Assembly: GCF_000166055.1 (NCBI RefSeq)
Contig: NC_014664.1
Coordinates: 2,114,001 to 2,178,000, forward strand
Source of the DNA: Rhodomicrobium vannielii ATCC 17100
GTDB lineage: Bacteria > Pseudomonadota > Alphaproteobacteria > Rhizobiales > Rhodomicrobiaceae
Direction: 5' to 3'
DNA length: 64,000 nucleotides
Position 1 is the first letter of the stretch, and each line of letters starts with the position of its first letter. The notes beneath the pieces were generated by a model. That model worked only from the letters and a program-made list of their open reading frames with translations. It did not search any database and was not told where the DNA came from. This document shows, one piece after another, positions 16,367-62,195 of this stretch. The position numbers were made by a program, and so were the translations under genes.

Positions 16367-16807
16367 TCAATCGGGTGTCGAGCAATCGGGCTCGGGCTTG
16401 CCAGCAGCACGCGCCGTTTCCTGCACGCAGGTATCGGTGACGGGCGCCGCGGTGTAGATAAGCCCAATCCACGCGCGCACGCGCTCCGCGTCGAAACCCG
16501 CTTCGCGGCGGCCGTCCACTTCCATCAGCGGGCGCCGGATCAAAAGATGATCGGCGAGCATGAGCGCGATGGCTTCCTCGGGTTCAAGCGTCGCGGGCAC
16601 GATCTCGCCGGACTTCACGCGCGGCGAAGACACGTTGAACCACTCCGCCACGGGGCGCGCGCCGAAAAAGCTCCTGATCCGCTCGCCGTCCCACGCTTCG
16701 TCGAGGATGCTGCGCACGTCGAGCGTATGGCCGCTTGCCTTGAGCAGCGCCTTCTGCCTCGCGTTGCCCGCGCAGCCGGGCTTCTCCCAGAAGATGACAC
16801 GCGCCAT
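16367..16807 (-). CDS. ArsC/Spx-like nitrogenase-associated protein (NifO-like)
   Basis: A 146-aa thioredoxin-fold protein of the arsenate-reductase/Spx superfamily. The opening MARVIFWEKPGCAGNARQKA with Cys12 matches the nitrogenase-associated (NifO-type) subfamily, followed by RSILDEAWDG and VKSGEIVP segments. NifO of Azotobacter affects nitrate tolerance of nitrogenase; molecular function is unsettled. Here it is the last gene of an operon with a NifA/sigma-54 promoter, starting 5 bases after the preceding TAG. The C-terminal extension with two Cys (DTCVQETA, EPDCSTPD) is longer than in classic ArsC. Confidence 0.75.
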   Translation of the reverse strand: MARVIFWEKPGCAGNARQKALLKASGHTLDVRSILDEAWDGERIRSFFGARPVAEWFNVSSPRVKSGEIVPATLEPEEAIALMLADHLLIRRPLMEVDGRREAGFDAERVRAWIGLIYTAAPVTDTCVQETARAAGKPEPDCSTPD

Positions 16808-16812
16808 GTTGC

Positions 16813-17742
16813 CTAGCCCGATTGCCGCGCGGAAAGCCGCTTCGCCGCATCGGTCTTCGCGGGGCGCGGCTGCCCGTAGGTCAGCGCCGTGATGATTGCC
16901 TGCGCGATGTCGCGCCCGCCTTTGTCGATGCCCTCCCAAGAGGCGCAACGGCCACGCGGATCGATTTCGAGAATTTTCGTGCCGGTAAGCACCTCCGTGC
17001 CGTCGCGGACGATGCCGCGCACGATGCCGTCGATCGGTGCCGTCACCGCCTCGCCGTTCAGGACGCCGACCGGAAAATTCTTGAAGACGCGCGTGCCGAT
17101 TTCCACGGCGCAATGCCAGCGCCCCGCAGACCTCGCGAAGGCGAAGCGCTCCGTTCCGACGCCGCCGAGACGACGCTCCTTCGAGGCGGGCGCAGCGGTG
17201 CGGCCCGCAAAAAGTGTGATGCCGTTCTTCGTCGGCTGCGTCTCGATGGCGATGTCGCAATTCTCGCCGACGCTGAAGCCGGGGCCAACGCCAACGGTGA
17301 TGCCGGCAAGATGGCGGATATCCGGCACGACGGCGCGATCCTGCATGCGGGCGTCGACAAGGAGATGCACGGTCGCCATGGGAATAAGATCGAGCAAGCC
17401 AAGCCGCGTGACGGCCACGCAATCGCCGCTGCCCAGCAGCATCGCGGTTGCAAGCGTCGTTTCAGCGTATTTGGCTTTGACGCCATCGAGTTCGGCGCAA
17501 TCTCCAAACAGGGCGTCGTGAAAGGCCATCTGCCGCCTGATCACGGGCGGGTGCGAATCGTGAGAAAGGACGGCGCTCCAGCCTGCGCGATAAAGATCGA
17601 CGGCGATGGCCGAGGCGATCTCGTTCGTACCGAGGATCACCGCGAAGGCCGAGCGGAAGCTGCGGGGCGATTGAGGGGGACGCGGCATTATGGTCATGAT
17701 GGACCCCATGGCAGGGACCGGAGACGCAGCCTTCTCGGCCAC
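16813..17742 (-). CDS. YqeB-like molybdoenzyme maturation protein (XdhC/EF2563-type)
   Basis: A 309-aa protein (shorter if it starts at ATG 17709 or 17697) resembling the YqeB/EF2563 family associated with maturation of selenium-dependent molybdenum hydroxylases. Family segments in order: a Rossmann-like start (FAVILGTNEIASAIAVDLY), VIRRQMAFHDALFGD, VHLLVDARM, VGVGPGFSVGENCDIAIET and APIDGIVRGIVRDGTEV, then a C-terminal EIDPRG. No molybdenum hydroxylase gene is in the window. Third gene of the haemoglobin operon. Inference: handles molybdenum or a cofactor for nitrogenase rather than for a hydroxylase. Confidence 0.7.
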   Translation of the reverse strand: MAEKAASPVPAMGSIMTIMPRPPQSPRSFRSAFAVILGTNEIASAIAVDLYRAGWSAVLSHDSHPPVIRRQMAFHDALFGDCAELDGVKAKYAETTLATAMLLGSGDCVAVTRLGLLDLIPMATVHLLVDARMQDRAVVPDIRHLAGITVGVGPGFSVGENCDIAIETQPTKNGITLFAGRTAAPASKERRLGGVGTERFAFARSAGRWHCAVEIGTRVFKNFPVGVLNGEAVTAPIDGIVRGIVRDGTEVLTGTKILEIDPRGRCASWEGIDKGGRDIAQAIITALTYGQPRPAKTDAAKRLSARQSG

Positions 17743-17770
17743 GCTCTCCGGCGCACCTCTATGCCGCTTG

Positions 17771-18361
17771 TTAGACCGGACGGTGCTCGTACTTGTTGCG
17801 GACCGGCAGCATGATGCCGAGCCCTTCCTCGTATGTGATCTCCGGGTAGCTCTCGTCGAAGGAGGCGGCGGCGTCGGCGATCGAATCGAGCTTGCCGGCG
17901 GTGTCCTTCTTCTTCAGCGTCTGCTTGTCGAGATAGAGCAGGTCGAGGATCTCGGCGTAAACGCCCGCTTCGTCGATCGGCAGGATGTAGAACGTGATGC
18001 CGTTATAAGACGCGCGGAACTTTTTCGAGATGTCGATATTGTTGCAGTACAGGAAGTACTTGCCCGAGGGCGTGAACGCATCGCCCAGCGCGTCGGCGAC
18101 GTCCTTCAGATACTCGAAAGAATGCAGGTATGTGGTGAAGAACGAGAGGGTCGTTTCGCCTTCCTGCGAGACAGCCATCACCTGATCGATCTTCAGCTCC
18201 GGCGGACGTGCTTCGTCGGCGAGCTTCGGCGCAAACTTCAGCGCGATGTCGCCGCGAAAACCGAAGCGGCCAGCCTTGTGGGTCGGCGCCTTCAGAATCG
18301 GGTTCATCAAACGCCCTTCGGCTTCAAGCTTCGCGAATCCCGTGTTGGTGATGTCCGTCAT
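17771..18361 (-). CDS. Unknown 196-aa protein in a NifA-type operon
   Basis: A 196-aa soluble protein with no signal peptide, no membrane helix and a single Cys (FLYCNNIDI). The sequence has a regular alpha/beta character (TLSFFTTYLHSFEYLKD, GITFYILPIDEAGVYAEIL) and a charged C-terminus. I do not recognise any family. It starts 2 bases after the truncated-haemoglobin stop and is followed by the YqeB-like gene, all under a sigma-54 promoter with two NifA sites. The context argues for a role in nitrogen fixation, such as oxygen or redox protection or nitrogenase maturation; the sequence itself gives no activity. Confidence 0.7.
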   Translation of the reverse strand: MTDITNTGFAKLEAEGRLMNPILKAPTHKAGRFGFRGDIALKFAPKLADEARPPELKIDQVMAVSQEGETTLSFFTTYLHSFEYLKDVADALGDAFTPSGKYFLYCNNIDISKKFRASYNGITFYILPIDEAGVYAEILDLLYLDKQTLKKKDTAGKLDSIADAAASFDESYPEITYEEGLGIMLPVRNKYEHRPV

Positions 18362-18363
18362 TC

Positions 18364-18744
18364 TTATTTTTCCTCGTCGTTGCGGAGATGATCCGCGAGT
18401 TGATAAAGCCGTTCTTCCAGTTCCGAGCGGATCTGTTCGTCAGTCACCACCGCGTGCAAGGCTTCCCGCATGCACTGCATCCAGGCGTCGCGCTCGGTCG
18501 CGCCGATGGGCATGGTGGCGTGGCGCGAAGCCAGGCCGGACTGCCCGAGCGGTGTTGCGATTCCCGCAGGCCGGTTGAGCCACTCGCTGAAGTAGCGTTT
18601 CATGACGCCCTTCGTTTGCGCGAGGTCTTCCCGATGCAGGTCGCGAACCGCGCGTGCCTCTGGCAACGCGTCCATCCGCTTGAAAAACTCTTCGATGATA
18701 CGGTCAACGGTTTGAGAACCGCCGATCTTGTTCAAATAAGTCAT
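18364..18744 (-). CDS. Group 2 truncated haemoglobin (trHbO type)
   Basis: A 126-aa 2-over-2 globin. Group 2 hallmarks are IIEEFFKRMDALPEA (B helix), the proximal His75 in LASRHATMPIG, and Trp88 (G8) in ERDAWMQCM. Position B10, usually Tyr, appears to be Phe (F20 or F21), which could alter ligand binding. Group 2 globins bind O2 tightly and some act on NO or peroxide. As first gene of an operon with sigma-54 and NifA elements, it is likely made only when nitrogenase is made, suggesting oxygen scavenging or delivery, or NO detoxification. Confidence 0.88.
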   Translation of the reverse strand: MTYLNKIGGSQTVDRIIEEFFKRMDALPEARAVRDLHREDLAQTKGVMKRYFSEWLNRPAGIATPLGQSGLASRHATMPIGATERDAWMQCMREALHAVVTDEQIRSELEERLYQLADHLRNDEEK

Positions 18745-18774
18745 AGTCAGGCCCGTCTATGTGTGGCGGAGGAT

Positions 18775-18791
18775 AAGCAACCTTCATACCA
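18775..18791 (-). promoter_or_regulatory. Sigma-54 (-24/-12) promoter of the truncated-haemoglobin operon
   Basis: On the minus strand the element reads TGGTAT-GAAGG-TTGCTT, with the invariant GG and GC separated by ten bases. It lies 31 bases upstream of ATG 18744, giving a predicted 5' leader of about 20 bases. An inverted repeat CCAAAT/ATTTGG (18789-18802) overlaps the -24 end. Two NifA-type sites lie 62-98 bases further upstream. Confidence 0.8.
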
Positions 18792-18852
18792 AATCAATTT
18801 GGCAGGAGCATGGGTCACTTTTCAATGACTTATGTCACTTGCCATGGAGACA

Positions 18853-18868
18853 TGTCGCAAGAACGACA
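18853..18868. promoter_or_regulatory. NifA upstream activator site (TGT-N10-ACA)
   Basis: Exact TGT (18853-18855), ten bases, ACA (18866-18868). It is about 62 bases upstream of the -24 element of the minus-strand haemoglobin operon, a normal distance for NifA enhancers. It lies in the short space after the receiver gene's 3' end. Confidence 0.75.
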
Positions 18869-18873
18869 GCGCG

Positions 18874-18889
18874 TGTCAGACTTCACACA
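18874..18889. promoter_or_regulatory. NifA upstream activator site (TGT-N10-ACA), second copy
   Basis: Exact TGT (18874-18876), ten bases, ACA (18887-18889), centred 21 bases (two helical turns) from the first site, so both would face the same side of the DNA. It overlaps the 3' end of the receiver-domain gene. Confidence 0.75.
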
Positions 18890-19332
18890 CCGGAACCAGT
18901 CCTTGGTATGCGCGGAAAGAGCTGCACCTTCGGCTTCGTGCTGAGGCGGCCGAGCAGGATGTCGGTCTGTCGCCGGACGGCCTCGATGGTCAGCGGATGA
19001 GCAATGATCGCGTGCGCTCCCGCACCCACCCAGGTTTTGGCGTCGCCGCTGTCCTTCTCTTCCACGACTATGGCGACTTTGGCGCCGGGCAAGCGATAGG
19101 CGATATCCTGAAGAACGGACAGCCCCTGCGCCTTCACAAGAGCGGCATCGACGAGCAGCAGATCCGGCTTCCATTCCGCACCCTTCTCGAAGGCCGCCTC
19201 GATGTCGCGCAACTCGTGCGTCTCGTTCCCGTCGGTCAGCATGAATGTCAGGATCGCACTCGTCACCTCGTCGCCCGATACGACGAAGACGCGCTTGTTA
19301 TCCGTTCGCGATGTGTCGACGCCGATACGCAT
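18883..19332 (-). CDS. Degenerate response-regulator receiver-domain protein
   Basis: A 149-aa single-domain CheY-like protein. The beta/alpha pattern is clear: KRVFVVSGDEVTS (acidic pair D21/E22), PDLLLVDAAL with phosphoacceptor-type D62, VAIVVEE, and GAHAIIAHPL. At the last position His112 replaces the conserved Lys, and the Thr/Ser site after the fourth strand is Glu, so normal phosphorylation switching is doubtful. It has no output domain. It is divergent from nifH with 378 bases between starts and shares that regulatory region. Inference: a nif-associated signalling or adaptor protein of unknown partner. Confidence 0.7.
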   Translation of the reverse strand: MRIGVDTSRTDNKRVFVVSGDEVTSAILTFMLTDGNETHELRDIEAAFEKGAEWKPDLLLVDAALVKAQGLSVLQDIAYRLPGAKVAIVVEEKDSGDAKTWVGAGAHAIIAHPLTIEAVRRQTDILLGRLSTKPKVQLFPRIPRTGSGV

Positions 19333-19412: not shown

Positions 19413-19428
19413 TGTCCGTTTTCATACA
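19413..19428. promoter_or_regulatory. NifA upstream activator site 1 (nifH promoter)
   Basis: Exact TGT (19413-19415), ten bases, ACA (19426-19428), about 95 bases upstream of the nifH -24 element. Being palindromic, it could serve both nifH and the divergent receiver gene. Confidence 0.75.
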
Positions 19429-19441
19429 CGCAGGCGCGGCG

Positions 19442-19457
19442 TGTCGGCTTTGAAACA
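19442..19457. promoter_or_regulatory. NifA upstream activator site 2 (nifH promoter)
   Basis: Exact TGT (19442-19444), ten bases, ACA (19455-19457), about 66 bases upstream of the nifH -24 element and 29 bases from site 1. Confidence 0.8.
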
Positions 19458-19523: not shown

Positions 19524-19539
19524 TGGCACGCCGCTTGCT
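19524..19539 (+). promoter_or_regulatory. Sigma-54 (-24/-12) promoter of nifH
   Basis: TGGCAC (19524-19529), five bases, TTGCT (19535-19539), an exact match to the sigma-54 consensus. The predicted start near 19550 gives a leader of about 160 bases before ATG 19711. No gene was seen in that leader. Confidence 0.92.
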
Positions 19540-19698: not shown

Positions 19699-20589
<891 letters not shown>

Positions 20590-62101: not shown

Positions 62102-62117
62102 TGTCGGAAATCCGACA
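62102..62117. promoter_or_regulatory. NifA upstream activator site of the hesB-nifU-nifS unit
   Basis: Exact TGT (62102-62104), ten bases, ACA (62115-62117); the core TGTCGG...CCGACA is also fully palindromic. It is 62 bases upstream of the -24 element, the same spacing as at the haemoglobin operon. Confidence 0.85.
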
Positions 62118-62179
62118 AACGGCATCTTCGACCCACTTCATATTTGACATTTATCAAGCATCGCAGCCACTTGTCGCGT

Positions 62180-62195
62180 TGGCACGGGCGTTGCT
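62180..62195 (+). promoter_or_regulatory. Sigma-54 (-24/-12) promoter of the hesB-nifU-nifS unit
   Basis: TGGCAC (62180-62185), GGGCG, TTGCT (62191-62195), a full consensus match. Predicted start near 62206, which leaves about 34 bases before ATG 62240. Confidence 0.92.

Follow-up and report, generated by a model that had tools for sequence, protein, structure and literature searches.

Which proteins does a diazotroph make from the genes that run away from nifH, and what could a haemoglobin among them do for nitrogenase? The question is raised by a 64,000-nucleotide stretch of the genome of the purple photosynthetic bacterium Rhodomicrobium vannielii ATCC 17100 (the window: bases 2114001-2178000 of the single 4,014,469-base contig), in which genes for a truncated haemoglobin, a 196-residue protein here called N196, a YqeB-like protein and a NifO-like protein follow one another on the minus strand, divergent from nifH. 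The matter has a practical side, as the upkeep of nitrogenase in aerobic and microaerobic bacteria is only partly known and the transfer of nif genes into plants needs a full list of helpers. The four genes very likely form an operon of nitrogenase accessory genes under a predicted NifA/sigma-54 promoter, and are probably switched on together with the nitrogenase genes. The reading preferred here, to which a probability of roughly 0.6 is given, is that NifA and sigma-54 drive this operon away from nifHDK, that N196, together with the globin, would act on nitrogenase, and that the YqeB-like and NifO-like proteins would steer molybdenum.

Four genes and their promoter

The genes of the operon, in the order in which they would be transcribed, are as follows.

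18364..18744, minus strand: haemoglobin of the truncated (2-on-2) kind, closest to group II, 126 amino acids, Pfam Bac_globin (PF01152)
17771..18361, minus strand: N196, 196 amino acids, uncatalogued family linked to nitrogen fixation
16813..17742, minus strand: YqeB-like protein, 309 amino acids, diazotroph-linked subfamily under the YqeB equivalog cut-off (TIGR03309)
16367..16807, minus strand: NifO/DraB-like nitrogenase-associated protein (ArsC family), 146 amino acids (TIGR01616)

The initial annotation, made from the letters of the window, had described four minus-strand genes with short gaps, and their coordinates, order and gaps (2, 28 and 5 bases, from the globin downstream) were confirmed, with the NifO-like start taken as the ATG at 16807; the mechanical list of open reading frames (ORFs) begins this gene further upstream. 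The globin scores 75.8 bits against Bac_globin (cut-off 21), and the NifO-like protein stands above the curated cut-off of TIGR01616 (167 bits, cut-off 109). The YqeB-like protein aligns with nearly the full TIGR03309 model at 135 bits, under the equivalog threshold of 220. N196 itself has no Pfam or NCBIfam match at E <= 1, and eight of its relatives give nothing above a Pfam or NCBIfam cut-off, their weak matches standing at E 0.04 or worse.

Upstream of the globin, and around nifH, the sequence features that bear on transcription are these.

18776..18791, minus strand: -24/-12 sigma-54-type promoter TGGTATGAAGGTTGCT, with 31 bases between it and the start codon (ATG) of the globin
18853..18868: NifA upstream activator-like site TGTCGCAAGAACGACA, of the form TGT-N10-ACA
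18874..18889: second upstream activator-like site TGTCAGACTTCACACA, TGT-N10-ACA, reaching into the receiver gene at its 3' end
18883..19332, minus strand: receiver-domain-only protein, 149 amino acids, between nifH and the globin promoter
19413-19428 and 19442-19457: pair of TGT-N10-ACA sites ahead of the nifH promoter
19524..19539, plus strand: -24/-12 promoter of nifH
19711..20589, plus strand: nifH, divergent from the operon, named from sequence and position
62102..62195, plus strand: upstream site and -24/-12 element before Fe-S_biosyn (hesB/iscA-type) and NifU-domain genes

NifA sites typically lie about 80-150 bases upstream of the transcription start, and the two sites ahead of the globin end 61 and 82 bases ahead of the -24 element, which belongs to a -24/-12 promoter with GG and GC at the correct spacing. 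The pattern TGGYRYR-N4-TTGCW occurs three times in the window, where 0.24 occurrences are expected and none of 100 shuffles reaches three. TGT-N10-ACA alone is weak evidence, with seven occurrences against 3.9 expected and 11 of 100 shuffles reaching seven. This lack of clear enrichment, and the overlap of one upstream site with the receiver gene, are what could be said for regarding the promoter-like sites as products of chance and the genes as read from another promoter, for example from the upstream receiver gene, an explanation that the joint occurrence of the elements makes very improbable. The strict combination of TGT-N10-ACA followed after 60-90 bases by a -24/-12 element is found four times in the whole genome and not once in a reversed control. 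Three of the four lie in the window, ahead of the globin operon, of nifH and of the hesB/nifU-type genes, and the fourth precedes a TPR gene. Its recurrence at homologous operons likewise speaks against chance. A scan of GTDB species genomes found 316 relatives of N196, of which the best 80 loci were combined with that of the window into a set of 81, so that proportions in this set are those of the best 80 of 316 relatives and not those of the whole family, and some loci end at contig ends. On the N196 side, a strict site pair (40-160 bases apart) is present in 40 of the 81 loci and in none in each of 50 dinucleotide shuffles, and the -24/-12 element alone in 42, against a shuffle mean of 0.3. 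The -24/-12 element and two TGT-N10-ACA sites that the initial annotation placed ahead of the globin are thus confirmed and rare genome-wide, and its NifA/sigma-54 interpretation gains support from that rarity, from the recurrence at relatives and from the presence in the genome of a gene for NifA itself (C1:1232651-1234426, 690 bits, cut-off 529). The layout it gave was correct for the four genes and the promoter; it had passed over the receiver gene between promoter and nifH.

N196 and nitrogen fixation

Is N196, which matches no catalogued family, confined to nitrogen fixers? Among 398 genomes sampled from the phylum, N196 occurs in 13 and nifD in 41, and all 13 N196 genomes are among those with nifD (hypergeometric probability 2e-14; with the window genome left out, 2e-13; these values, like those below, ignore shared ancestry). 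The initial annotation had named an equal occurrence of the gene order in genomes lacking nifHDK as a refutation of its reading; for N196, this sample brought no such refutation, all 13 genomes having nifD. In a sample of 297 genomes from the order, 11 of the 12 genomes with N196 are within the list of 46 with nifD, and the twelfth (G190) has nifH beside N196 (locus L018) and a fragment of nifD; outside Rhodomicrobium, all seven N196 genomes have nifD (P about 8e-7). The YqeB-like protein tracks nifD in the same order sample, being found in 14 genomes of which 13 are among the 46 (P 7e-11), and outside Rhodomicrobium in nine of nine (P 1e-8), although in one of these nine (G171) the matching piece is 58 residues long and contains a stop.

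Published expression data from Paraburkholderia phymatum agree with this distribution. N196 homologues in that species are BPHY_RS38505, found by tblastn, and BPHY_RS38250, with 54% identity; both are divergent from a nifH copy, and a -24/-12 element lies directly before BPHY_RS38250. In a transcriptome study of nodules formed by a nifA mutant, the two homologues, Bphy_7807 and Bphy_7752, both labelled hypothetical proteins, show log2 fold changes of -11.11 and -11.54, compared with -10.05 for nifD (PMC8305402). In the sorted table, which covers 142 symbiotic-plasmid genes and marks those without reads in the mutant as NA, the finite drops are largest for these two (PMC8305402). With N196 and the YqeB-like protein tracking nifD and two N196 homologues strongly dependent on NifA, the description of the operon as a nitrogenase accessory set, made in the initial annotation, is supported. 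As a nitrogenase helper that has been overlooked, N196 is a strong candidate: it is uncatalogued in Pfam and NCBIfam, occurs in 13 of the 41 phylum-sample genomes with nifD, stands divergent from a nifH at a distance of up to about 4 kb in 55 of the 81 loci, and shows the largest finite drops among the symbiotic-plasmid genes tabulated for the nifA mutant.

A known gene offers a precedent. In Pseudomonas stutzeri A1501, pnfA is divergent from nifHDK, has a -24/-12 element and TGT-N10-ACA, and depends on NifA and RpoN; its mutant has low nitrogenase activity in microaerobic conditions, and its 31.7 kDa product is described as partly similar to UspA/EtfA (PMC2820453). It is a precedent for a new NifA-dependent gene divergent from nifHDK, though by its description a protein of another kind than N196.

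What we infer of transcription in R. vannielii, of the N196 target, of the globin ligand and of a role in molybdenum supply can be put as a series of steps. Under low fixed nitrogen and low O2, NifA would bind the two upstream sites, polymerase carrying sigma-54 would initiate from the -24/-12 promoter, and nitrogenase and the four proteins would be produced together. The most likely target of N196, and of the globin where N196 has one as partner, would be the nitrogenase protein; the Fe protein, for instance, could be shielded or silenced once O2 or nitric oxide (NO) reaches the globin haem. The YqeB-like and NifO-like proteins would constitute a second module, most likely steering molybdenum to the nitrogenase cofactor.

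Two modules joined in Rhodomicrobium

The initial annotation had seen the operon as built around the globin, and this was not supported: the constant member of the set is N196. Neighbours in the 81 loci were counted from iterative profile searches, with the identities of draT, draG, NifO, zinc-ribbon and Rieske genes taken from example proteins. A globin is present in 44 loci, upstream of N196 in 38 and downstream in six (Thiobacillus, Sulfuriferula and related metagenome-assembled genomes, or MAGs); among the 59 loci that extend 2.5 kb or more upstream and 3 kb or more downstream, 34 have one. The remaining 37 of the 81, some of them cut by contig ends, have no globin match, and N196 is therefore probably able to work without a globin. 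In one locus (L025) globin and N196 share a single open frame. The globin-N196 pair divergent from nifH is seen in Burkholderiales, Methylophilaceae, Methyloversatilis and Derxia, and on a plasmid of Methylococcus EFPC2 the annotation lists, one after another, a response regulator, a group II truncated haemoglobin, N196, a Rieske protein, a hypothetical protein, an ArsC/Spx-family protein and a nitroreductase. Several loci of Bradyrhizobium, Nitrospirillum and Xanthobacter have hesB/nifU/nifS-type genes near N196 on one side and a Rieske gene on the other. The gene-order search bore out the four-gene set within limits: the exact order occurs in four of five Rhodomicrobium genomes and was seen only in that genus, and the fifth genome, counted in the genus as grouped in the genome set, is missing the globin. 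The N196 of Rhodomicrobium udaipurense (L033) is 99% identical to that of the window.

The genes that follow N196 in relatives suggest where it might act. Both draT and draG lie downstream of it in 33 of the 81 loci (31 without NifO between, two after NifO), globin and draT are both present in 20, and NifO is within range in 34, two of these on the other strand. The divergent nifH and the downstream draT and draG point to NifH as the target of N196, and an action on the Fe protein with the globin as gas sensor is a reasonable supposition. A more specific proposal, that N196 is a diazotroph-specific Fe-protein effector of new fold which, with the globin, provides an O2- or NO-triggered protection or switch-off beside or in place of DraT/DraG, is offered tentatively, as less likely than not.

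The same neighbourhoods raise the possibility that the operon is related to draTGB, in which case globin and N196 would be the signal or adaptor parts of the switch that turns NifH off post-translationally; in Rhodomicrobium these two, or the receiver protein, would work without draT/draG or have replaced them. The NifO-like protein provides one connection, as DraB of the Azospirillum brasilense draTGB operon is NifO-like (PMC5249018), so that the two operons have the last gene in common. In N196 loci draT, draG and NifO are found on the side divergent from nifH. No draT match was found in four Rhodomicrobium genomes (G000, which is the window genome, G030, G073 and G167), and the MAG relative G190 and four betaproteobacterial genomes do match; draG has no match in the window genome, the draG search giving a below-cut-off signal in five of 14 control genomes. 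Unlike draTGB, the Rhodomicrobium operon has globin, N196 and the YqeB-like gene in the stead of draT and draG, and it occupies the slot where relatives often carry draT-draG-NifO. N196 occurs without draT in its locus in 48 of the 81, several of them cut by contig ends, and kinship with draTGB, open to this objection, is regarded as a doubtful account of the operon. Because N196 operons often pair N196 with the globin and with DraT/DraG, direct knock-out tests are possible.

The second half of the operon has other associations. NifO of Azotobacter vinelandii, in nifB-fdxN-nifO-nifQ, belongs to the same TIGR01616 family; here the gene is in another operon, beside the YqeB-like gene. A role in molybdenum distribution has been proposed for NifO (PMC5249018). 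Compared with YqeB (TIGR03309), the YqeB-like protein is matched over nearly its full length but scores under the cut-off and tracks nifD in the order sample. Among eight fetched YqeB neighbourhoods, three have informative genes, whose ModA, ModD, NifA and NifB names are inferred from domains. In L130 the YqeB-like gene is followed by a short NifO-like ORF (66 bits, below the cut-off), DUF2478, a LysR-type helix-turn-helix domain (below the cut-off) and Mop; in L132 by Mop and SBP_bac_11 (modA-like); and in L131 by QRPTase (modD-like), a sigma-54 activator (nifA-like) and a radical-SAM protein with a FeMo-co domain (nifB-like), the set lying about 9 kb from nifD. Beyond these three, the conserved-ORF comparison of the eight showed no such genes except in L136, a relative of L130. 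The YqeB-NifO pair looks like a separate molybdenum module, and the YqeB-like neighbourhoods may represent a molybdenum-delivery set of diazotrophs.

These associations could be taken to mean that the operon serves mainly in molybdenum handling, with globin and N196 as passengers sharing the promoter. YqeB-like proteins do track nifD and adjoin Mop, modA-like and modD-like genes elsewhere, and once a short NifO-like ORF, but globin and N196 stand first after the promoter, and a NifA-type promoter is kept in many N196 loci without YqeB, which makes the passenger explanation unlikely. YqeB occurs in six of the 81 N196 loci, adjoining N196 in four and 7-9 kb off in two (L042 and L045), and the four are all from Rhodomicrobium or the related fen_921 MAG, which is without globin. 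In the Rhodomicrobium operon two modules are united that otherwise occur apart: globin-N196(-draT-draG-NifO) on the one hand, and YqeB with molybdenum genes on the other.

In the open literature searched, which left most subscription papers outside, no operon of a truncated haemoglobin in a nif cluster with nifO was found; within the same partial coverage, YqeB was not found tied to nitrogen fixation and molybdenum, nor draT linked to a truncated haemoglobin, nor a globin, a Rieske gene and a hypothetical protein brought together with nifH in one nif gene cluster. Papers on the NifA regulons of Azoarcus BH72, P. stutzeri and Rhodobacter capsulatus do not have the word globin in the main-text passages covered.

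The globin, contrary points and neighbouring genes

What might the globin bind? It is the only PF01152 match in the genome, and its best PDB match (E 4.7e-17) is the 2-on-2 haemoglobin 2xyk, from Agrobacterium. HisF8, TrpG8 and HisCD1 are kept in all 44 globins of the N196 loci. Tyr stands at B10 in 41 of these, which also keep the EW-x-GG motif, and the three Rhodomicrobium globins have Phe at B10 and have lost the motif. The Rhodomicrobium protein therefore shares PF01152, HisF8 and TrpG8 with group II truncated haemoglobins (2xyk; 1ngk HbO), and differs from them in Phe B10, in the absence of EW-x-GG and in its place in a nif operon. Tyr at B10 is usual in the group, not strictly defining, and usually holds bound O2, so the Rhodomicrobium globin may bind or release ligands differently. 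Because of the Phe at B10 and the loss of EW-x-GG, a role in binding O2 or NO is uncertain for this globin. Protection from these gases, which the initial annotation had suggested, remains a guess, and the Phe at B10 weakens it.

Truncated haemoglobins of other nitrogen fixers have different surroundings. Cyanobacterial glbN encodes one among nif genes, with other partners. Frankia hboO and hboN also encode truncated haemoglobins in a nitrogen fixer; their locus tags are far from nif tags, and they respond to O2 rather than to nitrogen status (PMC4058466). A study of rhizobial globins places nif/fix genes near one globin only and suggests no direct role in N2 fixation (PMC4648194). The N196 loci contrast with those rhizobial globins, in that in other proteobacteria the globin often adjoins nifH.

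A number of observations weigh against the view that NifA drives an operon in which N196 and globin act on nitrogenase. The loss of Tyr at B10 and of EW-x-GG in the Rhodomicrobium globin is one, and the 37 loci without a globin match and the 41 of 81 without the strict site pair are others. The P. phymatum operons have no annotated globin adjoining N196, and the -24/-12 element of BPHY_RS38250 is not accompanied by an exact TGT-N10-ACA. The nodules in that study were Fix-minus (PMC8305402), and part of the effect of the nifA mutation may therefore be indirect. A predicted model of N196 gave no clear or usable structural match in the PDB. Seven of the 13 N196 members of the phylum sample are distant (E 1e-15 to 3e-11), although all seven are in nifD genomes; of these seven, six were scanned, and none rises above a Pfam or NCBIfam cut-off. 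A further check covered 28 of 90 listed N196 genomes, picked mainly for an incomplete nif set beside N196. In these, nifD was matched at E <= 0.001 in 24 and above the cut-off in 18; six (G297, which is the G190 of the order sample, G298, G303, G308, G311 and G316) have only fragments or lower-scoring matches, and nifD is absent from four, the MAGs G302, G306 and G315 and the isolate draft G312.

The last of these, the draft genome of the cultured isolate Methylosinus sporium DSM 17706 (L080), carries the globin-N196 pair without a nifD match, which reflects either an assembly gap or an N196 without this nitrogenase.

The nif cluster itself continues behind nifH with ORFs for nifD, nifK, nifE and nifN, and nifX was also identified in it; nifH, nifD, nifK and nifE are named from sequence and position, nifD also from a family match. 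A nifS-type gene was recognized by eye behind the Fe-S_biosyn and NifU-domain genes. The receiver gene has the same position in four other loci (L015, L018, L021 and L033) and on the Methylococcus EFPC2 plasmid. As judged by eye, its product does not have the acidic pair and the lysine that active receivers usually carry. A SIR2-like gene (PF13289) recurs near nifH and N196, with 35 ORF matches in the locus set (for example L067:3689-4558 and L131:12559-13479). The fourth strict combination of NifA-type elements, at C1:655043-655137, lies about 33 bases before the TPR gene (locus L104:1172-1669), far from the nif cluster, and that gene is a candidate for a further NifA target.

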